A stretch of DNA of 32,988 nt from a virus. The stretch lies in IMG/VR virus record IMGVR_UViG_3300042558_000068, positions 1 to 32,988 of that record. The stretch is one strand, 5' to 3'. A model generated the notes under the pieces. The model ran no database searches, was not told the DNA's origin, and saw only the letters and a program-made list of their open reading frames with translations. Below are positions 6,546-32,988 of this stretch, piece by piece; within the stretch, counting starts at the first letter, position 1, and each line of letters begins with the position of its first letter. A program made the position numbers and the translations under genes.

Positions 6546-6560
6546 TGCAACAATGTTGCA
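6546..6560. promoter_or_regulatory. 15-bp palindrome TGCAACAATGTTGCA, copy 1
   Basis: Perfect dyad TGCAAC-AAT-GTTGCA. The identical 15 bases occur at 28405-28419, and both copies lie upstream of a promoter in the two main control regions. A regulator-binding site shared by the two operons is the simplest reading. Confidence 0.6.
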
Positions 6561-6614: not shown

Positions 6615-6645
6615 TTTGTTGATATGTGAATAAGTTGTATATTCG
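6615..6645 (+). promoter_or_regulatory. Bacteroidetes-type promoter with an internal DnaA box
   Basis: TTTG (6615-6618), a 19-base spacer and TATATTCG (6638-6645) fit the TTTG / TAnnTTTG promoter with one mismatch. The spacer contains TGTGAATAA (6625-6633), the complement of TTATTCACA, a perfect match to the TTATnCACA DnaA box. It would drive the genes from 6687 onward, with a leader of about 35 bases. Confidence 0.55.
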
Positions 6646-6686
6646 TTTTATAATAGTTCTTTATTTATTAACTAAACACAAAACAA

Positions 6687-6839
6687 ATGGAAATCACAAA
6701 ACTAAATTGGAACGGCAACCCATTTCTTGAAAGGCTCTTATTCTTAATGAATAAGTATAACCTTACACAACAAGAAGCAGAACCATTAGCAAAGTTAGAT
6801 TACAAACAAATTAAAGAAAAGTTATCTAAACTTAATTAA
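6687..6839 (+). CDS. 50-residue hypothetical helical protein
   Basis: The gene starts at ATG 6687 after the leader CTAAACACAAAACAA. It encodes a 50-residue protein with a short N-terminal strand (MEITKLNWNGNPF) and two helices (LERLLFLMNKYNLTQQEAE and LDYKQIKEKLSKL). The helices resemble a minimal helix-turn-helix or UBA-like bundle, which is a weak impression only. It is the first gene after the promoter. No family is recognised. Confidence 0.5.
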   Translation: MEITKLNWNGNPFLERLLFLMNKYNLTQQEAEPLAKLDYKQIKEKLSKLN

Positions 6840-6896
6840 AACAAAATAGGGGTGCGACTATTCAACGCACAATTTAATACACTAAACACAAACACA

Positions 6897-6983
6897 ATGA
6901 AAAAAGAAACCGCACAATTATTAGCAGTATTTTTAGTAGCTTGTTACCTTATTGGACAATTACAAGACATCTACTCAAAATGA
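6897..6983 (+). CDS. 28-residue single-pass membrane peptide
   Basis: This tiny open frame encodes MKKETAQLLAVFLVACYLIG followed by eight more residues: a positively charged N-terminus, one hydrophobic segment and a short polar end. The start has the same leader-like sequence (CTAAACACAAACACA) as the gene at 6687, and its stop overlaps the next start (ATGA). Those two signs, rather than homology, support it. A short inverted repeat (GTGCG 6852-6856 with CGCAC 6866-6870) lies in the 57-base gap upstream. Confidence 0.4.
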   Translation: MKKETAQLLAVFLVACYLIGQLQDIYSK

Positions 6984-7105
6984 TTTACGCTATCTGTCTT
7001 CTGCTAATTGCAACAGGTTTTGTAATAGCAGCATTATTTGACTACACAATTAAACACTATGACCCAAAGCACAAAAGAGTATATAGACAAATATTACGCA
7101 AGTGA
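6980..7105 (+). CDS. 41-residue single-pass membrane peptide
   Basis: It begins at the ATG that overlaps the preceding stop and encodes one N-terminal transmembrane helix (YAICLLLIATGFVIAALF) followed by a basic tail (KHKRVYRQILRK). It overlaps the next gene, at 7059, by 47 bases in another frame, so one of the two starts may be wrong. The function is unknown. Confidence 0.4.
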   Translation: MIYAICLLLIATGFVIAALFDYTIKHYDPKHKRVYRQILRK

Positions 7106-7271
7106 GCCGATAAGCATAATGATGTCTAACATAGATGCGACTTACTTAGAGATACTTACCTACTGCAACGAGCAGGGATATGAACCTGCAAAGCGTAGAA
7201 TGAGAAGTCCAGAACATAAGTCAGAAATCGGCTTTTTTGACATAGATAATTACAAACCCGAAACAATATAA
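7059..7271 (+). CDS. 70-residue hypothetical protein
   Basis: I prefer the ATG at 7059 over an in-frame TTG at 7038. The product is soluble, with an N-terminal helix (STKEYIDKYY) and a helix SNIDATYLEILTYCNEQGYE, then a polar end. The family is not recognised. It precedes the next gene by one base, so it is part of the same operon. Confidence 0.5.
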   Translation: MTQSTKEYIDKYYASEPISIMMSNIDATYLEILTYCNEQGYEPAKRRMRSPEHKSEIGFFDIDNYKPETI

Positions 7272-16745: not shown

Positions 16746-17267
16746 ATGCCTTGCGCTTTAACCCAAAATTATACCTTAGACTGTAAAGACAGTTTAGGTG
16801 GTATAACCGAAGTTTATTTTATAGCAGAAGCAGATGTTACTTCTACAACAGAAGCGAGTGGTGTAATTACCGCTTTAGTAAAAGCATCTGGCAAGAAGTT
16901 CTTTAAATACGAACTTGTAAAAGGCACTTCTCAATTAGTTGAGAATGTTAATGCAAACGTACAGAACGGAACTATCTTTTATGCTCCAGAATTAACTATC
17001 GTTTTAAACAAATTACAAGCGAACACAAGAAACGAAATCTTGTTGTTGGCTCAAAACACTTTAGTAGCAGTTGCCAAAGATAACAATGGCAAATATTGGT
17101 ACTTAGGAAAAACAAGAGGCTTAGACCTTACAGGCGGTAGCGCAGGTACAGGTACAGCTGACGGTGACAGAAGCGGTTACACTCTTACCTTTACAGGTGC
17201 TGAGCCAGCCCTTGCTCCAGAGGTAAACTCTACTGTGGCAGGTCAATTAACTACCGCAGGTTCTTAG
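16746..17267 (+). CDS. Probable tail tube (major tail) protein
   Basis: A 173-residue protein directly after the major capsid gene and flanked by terminators on both sides. It opens ALTQNYTLDCKDSLGGITEV and later has KDNNGKYWYLGKTRGLDLTG and a Gly-rich GTGTADGDRSGYTLTF segment. Proteins of this pattern follow the capsid gene in many Bacteroidetes phages. The GYxLTFxGxEP ending is reminiscent of tail tube proteins, and a separately terminated, presumably abundant transcript fits a major structural protein. A head decoration protein is the main alternative. Confidence 0.55.
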   Translation: MPCALTQNYTLDCKDSLGGITEVYFIAEADVTSTTEASGVITALVKASGKKFFKYELVKGTSQLVENVNANVQNGTIFYAPELTIVLNKLQANTRNEILLLAQNTLVAVAKDNNGKYWYLGKTRGLDLTGGSAGTGTADGDRSGYTLTFTGAEPALAPEVNSTVAGQLTTAGS

Positions 17268-17292
17268 GTTGTTTTGGTTTTGTATATAGATG

Positions 17293-17322
17293 CCCTCGGA
17301 CTTAATTGTTCGGGGGTTTTTT
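17293..17322 (+). terminator. Rho-independent terminator after the tube gene
   Basis: CCCTCGGAC (17293-17301) pairs with GTTCGGGGG (17308-17316) over a 6-base loop (nine pairs, two G-U), followed at once by six T. Confidence 0.85.
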
Positions 17323-19713: not shown

Positions 19714-20295
19714 ATGAGTTTAAACACATTATTCATAAGCGTACAGAATATTAAAGACAGGTCTGGCTTACACGCTAACGTAGACGAGAAACTTGTATTA
19801 CCTGAGATTAAGACCGCACAAGATATGTATATCTTACCTGCGCTTGGTAGTGCTTTGTACAATCGACTTCAAGCAGGTATCACGGCAAACAACTTAAACG
19901 CTAACGAGGTAATTTTATTAGACCAATACTTAGCAGATACTTTAGTGCATTATGTACTTAGCGAATTGCCAATGGGTTTGTCTTATCAGTTCTACAACAA
20001 AGGCTTGTTAAGGAAGGGTGGAGAAAATACCGAGAACCCTTCTATGCAGGATATGATTGACGTGGCGAATAGATATAAAGCAAGAGCGGAGTTCTACAAG
20101 CAAAGAATGATTAAATACTTAAAAGAATATTCTACACTTTATCCTGAGTACTTGAACCCTGGAAGTGGCATTGATGCAATACACCCTGAGAATGATGCTT
20201 ATACAACGAGCATTTGGTTAGGCGACTTTGATTGCTGCGCAGGTAAAAGCTTCGAGGAACTTTATCAAGGGAATAGAGGTTGTAGTGATTGCTAA
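19714..20295 (+). CDS. Head-tail connector protein (DUF6712-like)
   Basis: The 193-residue protein starts MSLNTLFISVQNIKDRSGLH and has EIKTAQDMYILPALGSALYN and LADTLVHYVLSELPMGLSYQ. These are the helices of the connector (gp6-like) proteins that dock under the portal in Bacteroidetes phages. A cysteine-rich C-terminus (FDCCAGKSFEELYQGNRGCS) is also usual there and may bind metal. Position after the portal supports the role. Three bases separate it from the portal stop. Confidence 0.65.
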   Translation: MSLNTLFISVQNIKDRSGLHANVDEKLVLPEIKTAQDMYILPALGSALYNRLQAGITANNLNANEVILLDQYLADTLVHYVLSELPMGLSYQFYNKGLLRKGGENTENPSMQDMIDVANRYKARAEFYKQRMIKYLKEYSTLYPEYLNPGSGIDAIHPENDAYTTSIWLGDFDCCAGKSFEELYQGNRGCSDC

Positions 20296-28404: not shown

Positions 28405-28419
28405 TGCAACAATGTTGCA
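28405..28419. promoter_or_regulatory. 15-bp palindrome TGCAACAATGTTGCA, copy 2
   Basis: Identical to 6546-6560. It lies 53 bases before the -7 element of the promoter at 28447-28480; copy 1 lies 77 bases before the -7 element at 6638. Confidence 0.6.
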
Positions 28420-28446: not shown

Positions 28447-28480
28447 TTTGCACTTTGTATTGTGTATTGTTGTATATTTG
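28447..28480 (+). promoter_or_regulatory. Bacteroidetes-type promoter of the replication operon
   Basis: TATATTTG (28473-28480) matches the -7 consensus exactly. TTTG elements lie at 28447-28450 (22-base spacer) and 28454-28457 (15-base spacer), on either side of the ideal distance. Transcripts would start about 10 bases before the ATG at 28498. Confidence 0.65.
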
Positions 28481-28497
28481 TGTAAACAAAACACAAA

Positions 28498-28704
28498 ATG
28501 ACACATTTAACCACCTACCAAATGTTCCAATATCAGCGATACGGGAACATATTAATTGACGGGGATAGGAGTACTACAAACCCTTATGACCCTGCCTTAT
28601 TGCCTAAAAACTACGATTACGAAGATGACGATTATACGTTTACTCGTTGGGTAGAACACAATGCAGAACTTGAACTTTTAAAAAACGAATTATATGAAGA
28701 TTGA
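28498..28704 (+). CDS. Hypothetical 68-residue acidic protein
   Basis: The first gene of the replication operon encodes a small acidic protein: THLTTYQMFQYQRYGNILID, then DPALLPKNYDYEDDDYTFTR. The strongly acidic, Tyr-rich middle is unusual and could mimic DNA or bind a basic protein, but this is speculation. The family is not recognised. It overlaps the next gene by 11 bases. Confidence 0.55.
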   Translation: MTHLTTYQMFQYQRYGNILIDGDRSTTNPYDPALLPKNYDYEDDDYTFTRWVEHNAELELLKNELYED

Positions 28705-29995: not shown

Positions 29996-30424
29996 ATGCT
30001 AACGAGAAAGAAAGACATATCAATTAGACAGTTAAAGGAGTTATACTATGCGCAACGTAACACACATTTGCAGCTACACGAAATGATGCAGCAACTTGGA
30101 TTGTTAGGCATAGAAGATAATGAACCTTTAGGATTAGACATTGGCGCAAGAACGATTGTTAAATTGGTAGACGAGGAGTTTGAGTGCGATGTATTAATTA
30201 AGGATAGGAGTTTAAAAACAACGTTTGGTCGCAAAGCTGCGGCATATTTACTAAGGCGTTATACTAAATTGAGCCTTAAGGAGATAAGTCAGTACACAGG
30301 AACAAGCGACCATACGACTGCTATCCATAACATTAAACAAGCAAATAACTTAATCGAAACTGAGGATTGGTTTAAAACTAAGCTAAAAAAACTTTGTTTG
30401 AAATTAGAACTTAAAGAGATTTAG
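29996..30424 (+). CDS. DnaA domain IV-like DNA-binding protein
   Basis: The C-terminal half of this 142-residue protein (residues about 75-120) matches domain IV of bacterial DnaA: GRKAAAYLLRRYTKLSLKEI, then SQYTGTSDHTTAIHNIKQAN, where the DHTTAIH signature (residues 105-111) equals the DnaA-box-reading DHTTVLH motif. There is no AAA+ ATPase domain. The N-terminal half is helical (KDISIRQLKELYYAQRNTHL). It probably binds DnaA-box-like sites, either to recruit or to compete with host DnaA. One perfect DnaA box lies in the promoter at 6625-6633. A structured RNA follows immediately. Confidence 0.8.
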   Translation: MLTRKKDISIRQLKELYYAQRNTHLQLHEMMQQLGLLGIEDNEPLGLDIGARTIVKLVDEEFECDVLIKDRSLKTTFGRKAAAYLLRRYTKLSLKEISQYTGTSDHTTAIHNIKQANNLIETEDWFKTKLKKLCLKLELKEI

Positions 30425-30426
30425 TA

Positions 30427-30434
30427 TATATTTG
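30427..30434 (+). promoter_or_regulatory. -7 promoter element TATATTTG for the small RNA
   Basis: Exact match to TAnnTTTG, overlapping the end of the upstream gene by a few bases of spacing. I see no good -33 element at the usual distance (TTTG at 30397-30400 is 26 bases upstream). Transcription would begin near 30440. Confidence 0.45.
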
Positions 30435-30440
30435 CAGTAA

Positions 30441-30534
30441 GAAAACACATTAACGTACTGCGAACCGATAATGTGTTTAGTGGTTAAATAATAATAACCC
30501 TGGTAGTTCGCAGCTATCGGGGTTTATTTTTTTT
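30441..30534 (+). ncRNA. Structured small RNA or leader with two complementary hairpin loops
   Basis: Hairpin 1 has a perfect 10-bp stem, AAACACATTA (30443-30452) with TAATGTGTTT (30469-30478), around the 16-base loop ACGTACTGCGAACCGA. Hairpin 2 is an 11-bp terminator stem (30496-30506 with 30514-30524, two G-U), loop TTCGCAG (30507-30513), followed by TA and eight T (30527-30534). All seven bases of loop 2 are complementary to CTGCGAA in loop 1 (30458-30464), allowing a kissing complex. CCGATA (30465-30470) can instead pair with TATCGG (30515-30520) in the terminator stem, which would break it. The T run ends directly at the ATG of the initiator gene. It may be an independent RNA or an attenuating leader. 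Confidence 0.65.
30496..30534 (+). terminator. Strong Rho-independent terminator directly before the initiator gene
   Basis: An eleven-pair stem AACCCTGGTAG / CTATCGGGGTT with a 7-base loop and an eight-T tract. The next base (30535) begins the ATG of the initiator. Readthrough or antitermination would be needed to express that gene from the upstream operon. Confidence 0.85.
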
Positions 30535-31236
30535 ATGGCAAAAGACCCAGCTTTTTTATTTTACCCAGGCGACTATGTTAGTGGCACAATGGGAATGACA
30601 TTTGAAGAAAAAGGTGCATATATGGACCTTCTTATGCTTCAATTTAATCGTGGTCATATGAATACTCATATGATACAACATACGGTTGGTCACTTGTGGG
30701 AGCAAGTGAAATGCAAGTTTATACAAGATGACTTAGGATTATGGTACAATGTTAGACTTGATGTTGAGAAGGAAAAGCGTAAAACCTTTACTGAGTCAAG
30801 ACGAAACAACATAAAATCTAAAAACAAAACAGTAGAAAACGCATCATATGAAAGTCATATGAACAATCATATGAAGCATCATATGGAAAATGTAAATGAA
30901 AATATAAATAAAGATATAATTACTAATAAAAGTAAATGCACTTTTGAAGAAGTTTACGAGTATATGTCTTTAAAAATAGGAAAAGATAATGCTAAGATTG
31001 AAGCTGAAAAGTTTGTAAATTACTACGAAAGTAATGGTTGGAAAGTAGGTAAAAACACCATGAAAAGTTGGACACACGCAGCAAATAATTGGATAACTAA
31101 CACAAAACAATATGCAAAAGGAACTACAAACAATACAAGAAAACTTACAAAAGGCGAACAATTCAATCTCGACAGTTACAACTTGCTCAACTCTACTACC
31201 TATGGAGCAGGAGATTATGACCGCATTTTCGGGTGA
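30535..31236 (+). CDS. Replication initiator, DUF1376-type
   Basis: A 233-residue protein. The N-terminal domain (PAFLFYPGDYVSGTMGMTFE, EKGAYMDLLMLQFNRGH) is the DUF1376 winged-helix fold of phage replication initiators. A basic linker follows, rich in His-Met and Asn (SHMNNHMKHHM). The C-terminal domain (TFEEVYEYMSLKIGKDNAKI, KFVNYYESNGWKVGKNTMKS) is commonly found in such initiators. It should bind the phage origin and recruit the helicase loader. The linker-coding DNA holds CATATG repeats and an AT-rich tract, a candidate origin. It starts directly after a terminator and overlaps the next gene by 35 bases. Confidence 0.75.
   Translation: MAKDPAFLFYPGDYVSGTMGMTFEEKGAYMDLLMLQFNRGHMNTHMIQHTVGHLWEQVKCKFIQDDLGLWYNVRLDVEKEKRKTFTESRRNNIKSKNKTVENASYESHMNNHMKHHMENVNENINKDIITNKSKCTFEEVYEYMSLKIGKDNAKIEAEKFVNYYESNGWKVGKNTMKSWTHAANNWITNTKQYAKGTTNNTRKLTKGEQFNLDSYNLLNSTTYGAGDYDRIFG
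30845..30937. other. Candidate replication origin: CATATG iterons plus AT-rich tract
   Basis: Four CATATG sites start at 30845, 30856, 30868 and 30880 (spacing 11, 12, 12), three of them in the form CATATGAA. They are followed by a 52-base tract (30886-30937) with only six G or C. Two further CATATG sites, also 12 bases apart, lie at 30655 and 30667 in the same gene. Iterons plus an AT-rich unwinding region inside an initiator gene is the arrangement of the lambda origin in gene O. This is an inference from layout. Confidence 0.45.
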
Positions 31237-32268: not shown

Positions 32269-32988
32269 AGACTATACTGTTTTTATTATATCTAATAATA
32301 GACCTAATAAAGTTTATACAGATATAATGCTAAAAAAATATAATTACACTGGCACGTCATATATTGTTTTAGATGATGAAGACAAGAGCGTAAATGAATA
32401 TATCAAAAATTTTGGTGCTGACAGAATTAAAATATTCAACAAAAAAGAAATTGCTGATAAGACAGACGAAGGTAATAACTTTGATAACAGACGAACTACT
32501 ACACACGCACGAAACGCCTGTTTTGATATTGCAGAACAATTAGGGTATAAATACTTTTTAGTTTTAGATGACGATTATACAGTATTTAGATACAGATACA
32601 TTGATAAATATATTACTAAAGGATATGTAAATAATCTTGATAATCTATTTTTACAGACTTTTAAATTCTATAAAAACAATAATTTTATTTCAATAGCGTT
32701 TGCACAGGGTGGTGATTTTATAGGTGGCGAGTCTTGTGGTTTATTAAAAAACTACATCTATAATGGCAGAAAATGTATGAACTCGTTTTTTTGTTCAACT
32801 GATAGAAGGTTCTGGTTTTTAGGACAATTAAATGAAGATGTCAATACATACGTTACTTATGGCAATAAAGGTGGTCTTTTTTTGACTATTCCTTTTGTAG
32901 GACTTGAACAAAAAGCGACACAATTAACAAATGGCGGAATGACAGACGCATACTTAAAGTACGGAACATATGTTAAAAGTTTTACAAC
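32258..32988 (+). CDS. TET-associated-type glycosyltransferase, N-terminal part (continues at base 1)
   Basis: This gene continues at bases 1-251 to give about 284 residues. It follows the TET-associated glycosyltransferase (TAGT) family: TVFIISNNRPNKVYT at the start, FDNRRTTTHARNACFDIAEQ (residues about 75-94), and YFLVLDDDYTVFRYR, whose DDDY at 104-107 is the metal and nucleotide-sugar site. FAQGGDFIGGESCG and CSTDRRFWFLGQLNEDVNTY follow. In other phages TAGTs are thought to glycosylate 5-hydroxymethylcytosine made by TET/JBP oxygenases. No TET/JBP, hydroxymethylase or methyltransferase gene is visible here, so the acceptor is unclear. GREB1-type glycosyltransferases, which act on proteins, are relatives. 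Confidence 0.75.
   Translation, partial: MENKDYTVFIISNNRPNKVYTDIMLKKYNYTGTSYIVLDDEDKSVNEYIKNFGADRIKIFNKKEIADKTDEGNNFDNRRTTTHARNACFDIAEQLGYKYFLVLDDDYTVFRYRYIDKYITKGYVNNLDNLFLQTFKFYKNNNFISIAFAQGGDFIGGESCGLLKNYIYNGRKCMNSFFCSTDRRFWFLGQLNEDVNTYVTYGNKGGLFLTIPFVGLEQKATQLTNGGMTDAYLKYGTYVKSFT
32862..32988. repeat. Terminal direct repeat, right copy
   Basis: Exact copy of bases 1-127. Removing one copy leaves a unit of about 32,861 bases in which the gene starting at 32258 continues to the stop at 249-251. Confidence 0.95.

Follow-up and report, generated by a model that had tools for sequence, protein, structure and literature searches.

A terminated kissing-loop RNA of uncultured phages with an invariant segment proposed to act as an antisense seed

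An uncultured phage genome, analysed here over a window of 32,988 bases that constitutes one IMG/VR virus record, carries between its DnaA-domain gene and its DUF1376-like replication gene a short element that we regard, with little doubt, as a folded RNA with two hairpins that pair loop to loop. Our preferred reading, to which we assign a probability of about 0.58, is that this RNA is a terminated phage small RNA acting in trans, with an invariant antisense seed on a kissing-loop scaffold. The RNA family is apparently undescribed, and it has been seen only in uncultured phages.

The phage genome and the surroundings of the element

Bases 1-127 and 32862-32988 of the window are identical and form an exact terminal repeat of 127 bases; the contig is a circular or terminally redundant phage. 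Several relatives have a terminal overlap of equal length, and the 127-base overlap is probably an assembler k-mer. All identifiable genes are on the + strand, and their products include a large terminase, an Erf-type annealing protein, a DnaA-domain-IV protein and the product of the DUF1376-like replication gene. The promoter boxes, which read TATATTTG or TATATTCG, suggest a Bacteroidota host, and the uncultured phages that bear the element probably infect Bacteroidota. The replication region had no DNA-level match among the cultured phages of the collection searched.

CATATG, read as His-Met codons, recurs many times in the DUF1376-like gene; the repeats could be iterons, in which case the origin would lie within the initiator gene, as it does in lambda O. 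Two other Bacteroidota-type promoters are located at 6616-6645 and 28448-28480. Upstream of both, at 6546-6560 and 28405-28419, lies the 15-bp palindrome TGCAACAATGTTGCA, which looks like an operator common to the two promoters.

Architecture of the element

The element and its neighbouring genes comprise the following features:

29996..30424, + strand: upstream gene with a DnaA domain IV-like HTH (PF08299, E = 3e-11)
30422-30424, + strand: stop codon of the DnaA-domain gene
30427..30434, + strand: perfect Bacteroidota-type -7 promoter box TATATTTG, shortly after the stop codon of the DnaA-domain gene
30443..30478, + strand: hairpin 1, with a 10-bp stem, a purine mismatch, two more pairs and a 10-base loop
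30458..30464, + strand: kissing sequence 1, CTGCGAA, in the loop of hairpin 1
30471..30489, + strand: invariant 19-base segment ATGTGTTTAGTGGTTAAAT, covering the 3′ arm of the lower hairpin-1 stem and part of the linker; proposed antisense seed
30479..30495, + strand: single-stranded linker joining the two hairpins; its length in relatives is 14-17 bases
30496..30524, + strand: terminator hairpin with an 11-bp stem and a 7-base loop, listed by the terminator scan
30507..30513, + strand: kissing sequence 2, TTCGCAG, the entire terminator loop
30525..30534, + strand: T-rich terminator tail, with T8 at 30527-30534, followed by ATG at 30535
30535..31236, + strand: DUF1376-like replication gene; relatives have Lin1244_N-type or other organisers instead, or HNH/GIY-YIG genes before it

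The transcript would be an RNA of roughly 93 bases starting at about 30440-30443. In hairpin 1, the arms AAACACATTA (30443-30452) and TAATGTGTTT (30469-30478) form 10 pairs around 16 bases, within which C30454-G30467 and G30455-C30466 can pair past an A-A mismatch to leave a loop of 10 bases. The terminator stem joins 30496-30506 to 30514-30524 by 11 pairs, including two G-T. The earlier note, written from the letters of the window, had placed stems of 10 and 11 bp, a run of eight T and an initiator ATG here, with a -7 element just upstream, and all of these are located where it put them.

The signals at both ends are conserved in relatives. The position of the -7 box is occupied by TATATTTG or TATATTCG in 301 of 305 motif-matched sequences, a redundant set that includes a few chance matches, and the leader that follows the box varies in length and sequence. 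For a -33 box there is at best a degenerate candidate, TTAG/TTGA, spaced 19 bases from the -7 box; the TTTG that is conserved some 34 bases upstream of the -7 box was rejected for this role because a spacing of 30 bases is too long. At the other end, in every relative listed, the T-rich tail runs up to the next start codon or stops within a few bases of it. With a promoter box and an intrinsic terminator of its own, the element would give a separate transcript.

Covariation supports two hairpins with pairing loops

We examined the structure in 36 distinct aligned sequences, which are phylogenetically dependent. The complementarity of the terminator loop TTCGCAG to CTGCGAA in the loop of hairpin 1, from which the earlier note had proposed a kissing-loop RNA, is present in the window and conserved by covariation in related phages: pairing in the 7-bp helix reaches 99.6%, and both partners have changed in five of its seven pairs. 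Its covariation score is 0.716 versus 0.168 in shuffles, a value reached by 0 of 500 shuffles, and sliding the helix lowers pairing to 25-33%. Both stems are likewise conserved and covary, with 99.1% of cells paired in hairpin 1 and 98.4% in the terminator hairpin, and three pairs changed on both sides in each. RNAalifold, supplied with no structure, returned both hairpins with their 10-base and 7-base loops. The folding energy of 30400-30560 is modest (z = -2.0).

We also looked for terminators with a loop that matches that of the hairpin immediately before them. The window contains two, the element included, and ten Markov-simulated windows contained none. The other one, at 17233-17318, has an upstream hairpin that is not conserved and was rejected as a chance match; for the element, chance is ruled out by the covariation. 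The earlier note had further suggested that CCGATA at the edge of loop 1 could pair alternatively with TATCGG in the terminator stem. These letters are in the window, yet the pairing did not hold up in the alignment: at 79.2% it is paired slightly less often than in shuffles (mean 79.9%), no pair has changed on both sides, and one pair is broken in up to 16 of the 36 sequences.

In many variants a G-U pair on the + strand preserves the pairing; on the opposite strand it would be an A-C mismatch. A covariance model scores 112 bits on the + strand and 22 bits at best on the - strand. Together with the orientation of the -7 box and the T tail, these one-strand G-U pairs and model scores indicate an element that works as RNA and not as DNA. 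We hold the structural claim, a folded RNA with kissing loops, to be very nearly certain and much better founded than the mechanism proposed below.

Loop alleles in related phages

Two protein searches of viral contigs, with DUF1376-like and DnaA-domain queries, yielded 160 loci, and a scan with part of the linker added further loci. At the loci from the protein searches, wherever the stretch is present, the element sits between the DnaA-domain and DUF1376-like genes. Counting each combination of upstream gene, loop allele and downstream gene once, we found it in 124 distinct sequences, all from uncultured relatives of the window phage. Behind the element lies a DUF1376-like, a Lin1244_N-type or another replication organiser gene, or an HNH/GIY-YIG endonuclease gene followed by an organiser; the HNH/GIY-YIG genes lie exactly between the element and the replication gene in relatives L143, L144, L152, L280 and L192.

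None of the cultured phages searched carries the element, and the same architecture was not found in cultured Polaribacter and Flavobacterium phages with a DnaA-domain gene. An exact scan of host chromosomes with the linker sequence TGTTTAGTGGTTAAAT returned 101 stretches, with no hairpin context among the matches listed. No phage of the group without the RNA was found, as the contigs that lack the element are fragments that also lack the DnaA-domain gene, and so there is no natural negative control. Contigs L538, L539 and L540 begin inside the gene after the replication gene and have no DnaA-domain gene, as if assembly fails in the variable region.

The paired loops occur as six alleles: CTGCGAA/TTCGCAG, GTACGAA/TTCGTAC, CTACGAA/TTCGTAG, GAGCGAA/TTCGCTC, AGTCCAG/CTGGACT and AGTCGAG/CTCGACT. 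The match is perfect in 62 of 63 distinct elements; the remaining one, CTACGAA/TTCGCAG, has one mismatch and is a mixture of two alleles. All six terminator loops start with YUNR, the U-turn motif of fast-binding antisense loops (PMC6562991), and the two kissing pairs that never vary involve U2 and G4 of the terminator loop. The bases that flank the kissing sequence in loop 1 are mostly purines (AA, GA or TA before it, C, A or T after it). On the tree of the upstream gene (124 sequences) we count at least 61 allele changes, and different alleles can stand behind upstream sequences that differ by only 3-6 bases in 408. Since the loop match is kept despite these changes, the loop pairs are exchanged as units. 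Diversifying selection on the loops is possible, and homing could be the driver of allele exchange.

An invariant segment between and within the hairpins

The 19-base segment ATGTGTTTAGTGGTTAAAT is identical in 63 of 63 distinct elements, and also in loci found by protein similarity alone. In the upstream gene of the same loci, 120 of 136 third codon positions vary. Substitutions in the lower hairpin-1 stem are confined to the 5′ arm, even where they weaken or break a pair, which argues that the 3′ arm and the linker are held by something besides pairing.

Eleven of the 19 invariant bases (30479-30489) are located in the linker and form a conserved single-stranded seed, and the remainder is in the lower stem, where the predicted fold encloses the seed part ATGTGTTT. 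In the secondary-structure ensemble, AGTGGTT is unpaired with a probability of 0.96-0.99 and the rest of the linker with 0.3-0.9. The linker was also considered as a DnaA box and rejected, as GTGGTTAA recurs in the window only at 28507, on the other strand.

Predicted targets behind the terminase gene

Complements of the segment fall mainly in start regions of the window. The best predicted sites lie in one operon of small genes behind the terminase gene, 9 kb from the element:

6638..6645, + strand: -7 box TATATTCG of the proposed target operon
6671..6680, + strand: proposed target site ACTAAACACA, leader of the 50-codon gene at 6687; 10-nt perfect complement
6880..6890, + strand: proposed main target CACTAAACACA, leader of the 28-codon gene MKKETAQLLAVFLV at 6897; 11-nt perfect complement
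7029..7058, + strand: weaker proposed target, leader of the 70-codon gene at 7059

The top three of the 75 start regions all belong to this operon behind the promoter at 6616-6645: the gene at 6897 ranks best with a duplex of -19.0 kcal/mol, that at 7059 second with -18.5 kcal/mol across the start region, and that at 6687 third with -17.1 kcal/mol. Two further genes of the window have complements inside their coding sequence, that at 28498 with 10 bases in codons 3-6 and that at 19714 with 9-12 bases in codons 3-7. The stretch 6687-7271 is a variable row of small genes, several of which have A/C-rich leaders of their own, and its gene content varies between relatives like that of a cassette region.

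The target idea arose in the window and was then tested in related phages, so that the following counts are not fully independent of it. Start regions, taken as -25 to +15, make up about 9% of the sequence in 21 phage genomes (the window and 20 others); they contained 80 occurrences of 9-mers complementary to the segment, and the remaining sequence contained 26. This ratio was reached by 0 of 5000 dinucleotide shuffles of the segment, and the raw count had p = 0.019. When the roughly 78 start regions of a genome are ranked by duplex energy, the leader of the 28-codon gene (MKKETAQ...) comes first or close to first in most genomes, and its leaders comprise several quite different sequences among the phages. 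Thirteen distinct leaders of this gene gave a mean of -17.05 kcal/mol versus -8.5 +/- 1.6 with shuffled linkers (0 of 300); family-wise, 5 of 300 shuffled linkers gave some leader family an equally low energy.

A further sample, of 80 contigs found through the terminase, overlaps in part with the earlier genomes and is to that extent not separate. The 193 distinct leaders within 900 bases behind TerL had a mean duplex of -10.8 kcal/mol, compared with -6.9 kcal/mol for 382 control leaders of genes before TerL, and duplexes of -13 or below were formed by 27% of the former and 0.5% of the latter; none of 300 shuffled linkers matched the difference. The z-scores were -3.9 for the operon leaders (0 of 300), -1.4 for intergenic leaders elsewhere and -0.8 for overlapping starts. 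The paired bases cluster on TGTGTTT and GTGGTTAAA. The C content of the target-operon leaders is 19%, versus 12-15% in others, and shuffling corrects for this only partly. These results indicate that the invariant segment is complementary to the target leaders beyond chance and that this complementarity has been kept across relatives.

A second conserved stretch lies elsewhere in the window. About 30 bases at 17260-17291 (GGTTCTTAGGTTGTTTTGGTTTTGTATATAGAT), preceding the terminator at 17292-17317, are nearly identical across relatives, and the end of the preceding gene varies. This may be a second G/U-rich small RNA or an RNA derived from a 3′ end; the target test on this stretch gave a diffuse result with no clear family.

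A model for the RNA and alternative explanations

In the mechanism that we propose, a Bacteroidota-type promoter and an intrinsic terminator, both belonging to the element, would start and end the RNA, as the conserved signals suggest. Its two hairpins fold and their loops pair over 7 bp, as the covariation shows, and the 19 invariant bases, some in the linker and some in hairpin 1, would serve as the antisense seed. Single-stranded AGTGGTTAAA would contact the leader of a target mRNA first, and pairing would then spread into TGTGTTT and open the weak lower stem of hairpin 1. The candidate targets are the leaders behind the post-terminase promoter, chiefly that of the 28-codon membrane-peptide gene, in which the duplex would mask an A/C-rich stretch just before the start codon. 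The kissing loops would most likely act as a scaffold that joins hairpin 1 to the terminator, in one RNA or in a dimer, and presents the seed. By our own estimate, the geometry allows either arrangement: the two stems and the 7-bp kiss placed in line span about 85-90 Å, a distance that the 14-17-base linker would just bridge in one molecule, and a closed dimer would be relaxed.

Bacteroidota ribosomes work without Shine-Dalgarno recognition. In Flavobacterium johnsoniae, initiation is tuned by structure and by adenines around the start rather than by Shine-Dalgarno pairing (PMC6847099). As initiation is sensitive to structure near the start, repression of translation is the likelier sign, and the effect on the target operon is probably translational repression.

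The position of the element also fits a cis-acting leader or attenuator, in which kissing would alter terminator efficiency or bury the start codon and thereby set the level of the replication protein; the earlier note had leaned this way and had compared the element with plasmid copy-number RNAs. The terminator tail ends at or just short of the next start codon in all relatives seen, the gene that follows is usually a replication organiser, and one kissing partner is the loop of the terminator itself. Nevertheless, we consider this reading unlikely, because an HNH/GIY-YIG gene separates the element from the replication gene in some relatives, the competing CCGATA/TATCGG pairing is not conserved, and kissing as drawn keeps the terminator stem intact, so that no switch is evident. 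It also leaves the invariant linker unexplained, and the strongest signal is instead the antisense match to an operon 9 kb away. A cis effect on the replication gene may nonetheless exist in addition to the role in trans. The linker could be accounted for at the DNA level, if it served recombination or homing between modules and the hairpins were mere by-products, and the element does sit at a sharp change of gene content, beside homing-type endonuclease genes; this is nonetheless very improbable, since the one-strand G-U pairs, the oriented promoter box and T-rich tail, and the loop-loop covariation all point to RNA. Least credible of all is a micro-ORF, ATGTGTTTAGTGGTTAAATAA, encoding a leader peptide MCLVVK whose translation would open hairpin 1 and affect the terminator. 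In the window the frame is open, and the AATGAT (TGA) and AACAAT variants retain the stop, but a one-base deletion removes the stop in several contigs, and the third codon positions are invariant where most of those in the neighbouring gene vary.

The loop alleles raise the further idea of a code for self and non-self, in which RNAs of co-infecting phages with the same allele would pair, through dimers or by terminator-loop binding, and keep replication or target repression in check, and different alleles would ignore each other, as in P4 CI/C4 immunity and plasmid incompatibility. Six self-matching alleles, the many allele changes, the different alleles behind near-identical upstream sequences and the YUNR motif of fast antisense loops in every terminator loop would all suit such a code, for which there is a precedent in the ColE1 loops that determine plasmid compatibility (PMC9458437). 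We nevertheless find it doubtful, and distinctly improbable on present evidence. The partners lie on one RNA, so intramolecular pairing should win; drift with compensation and recombination would also yield alleles; and no allele-specific partner of the loops was found elsewhere in the genomes, where the loop-1 7-mers of the own allele occur 1.38 times per genome versus 1.34 for other alleles, and the terminator-loop 7-mers 1.10 times versus 0.56, with no shared position.

The trans-acting reading joins a terminator loop permanently matched to a 5′ hairpin with an invariant antisense segment and predicted targets in the same genome, and it makes predictions that can be tested directly. The loops are one of the cleanest cases of loop-loop covariation obtainable from sequence data alone, and their frequent exchange with the match always kept makes loop diversification testable. 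The proposed regulation bears on how phages of Bacteroidota, hosts without Shine-Dalgarno initiation, time their genes post-transcriptionally. If the self/non-self code were true, phages would have an incompatibility system made of RNA, and the element would unite it with an antisense seed.

Comparison with known RNA systems

The earlier note did not recognise the element as a member of a known RNA family, in agreement with Rfam, in which no family reached its gathering score in the window; weak matches to trpB, CopA and PyrR fell far below the cut-off. A review of phage small RNAs (PMC12197685), covered in our search of the open-licence literature, contains neither "kissing" nor any "Bacteroid" term.

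Several known RNAs share single features with the element. Like the P4 CI RNA and the P1 C4 antisense RNA, it is a phage RNA near replication functions, and as in P4 CI it has complementary segments within one primary transcript (PMC4825925). It gave no match to C4 antisense RNA (RF01695) at the gathering score, and it has no separate upstream and downstream target sites with the loop sequence. The lambda OOP RNA is also a short terminated RNA beside a replication initiator gene, but OOP is antisense to the neighbouring cII (PMC12197685), whereas the element runs in the direction of the genes. Complementary kissing loops are found in the phi29-type packaging RNA and the HIV-1 DIS (PMC7357161) as well; those work between molecules, in packaging and dimerisation, whereas here one of the loops belongs to a transcription terminator, and the element did not reach the gathering score of an Rfam model for the phi29 packaging RNA.

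In gene order and in small-RNA/read-through logic, the closest system appears to be IsrK of the Salmonella prophage Gifsy-1. To our knowledge, no loop-loop pairing of the IsrK hairpins has been described, and the resemblance of the element to IsrK is one of gene order alone. IsrK is a phage small RNA with its own promoter and terminator, located directly before a phage gene (PMC4825925), as we propose for the element. Read-through of IsrK yields an mRNA and its short form acts in trans (PMC4825925), but IsrK activates its own read-through mRNA, whereas the best predicted targets here are 9 kb away. In loop chemistry, the ColE1 RNA I/RNA II pair seems closest: like the CopA-type RNAs, it has kissing loops, a fully paired 7-base YUNR loop and loop alleles. 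The ColE1 and CopA partners are transcribed from opposite strands of one locus; the element was scored at 16.9 bits by the CopA-like family (RF00042), against a gathering score of 60, and lies on the same strand as the rep gene. Both of its loops are on the + strand, in one RNA.
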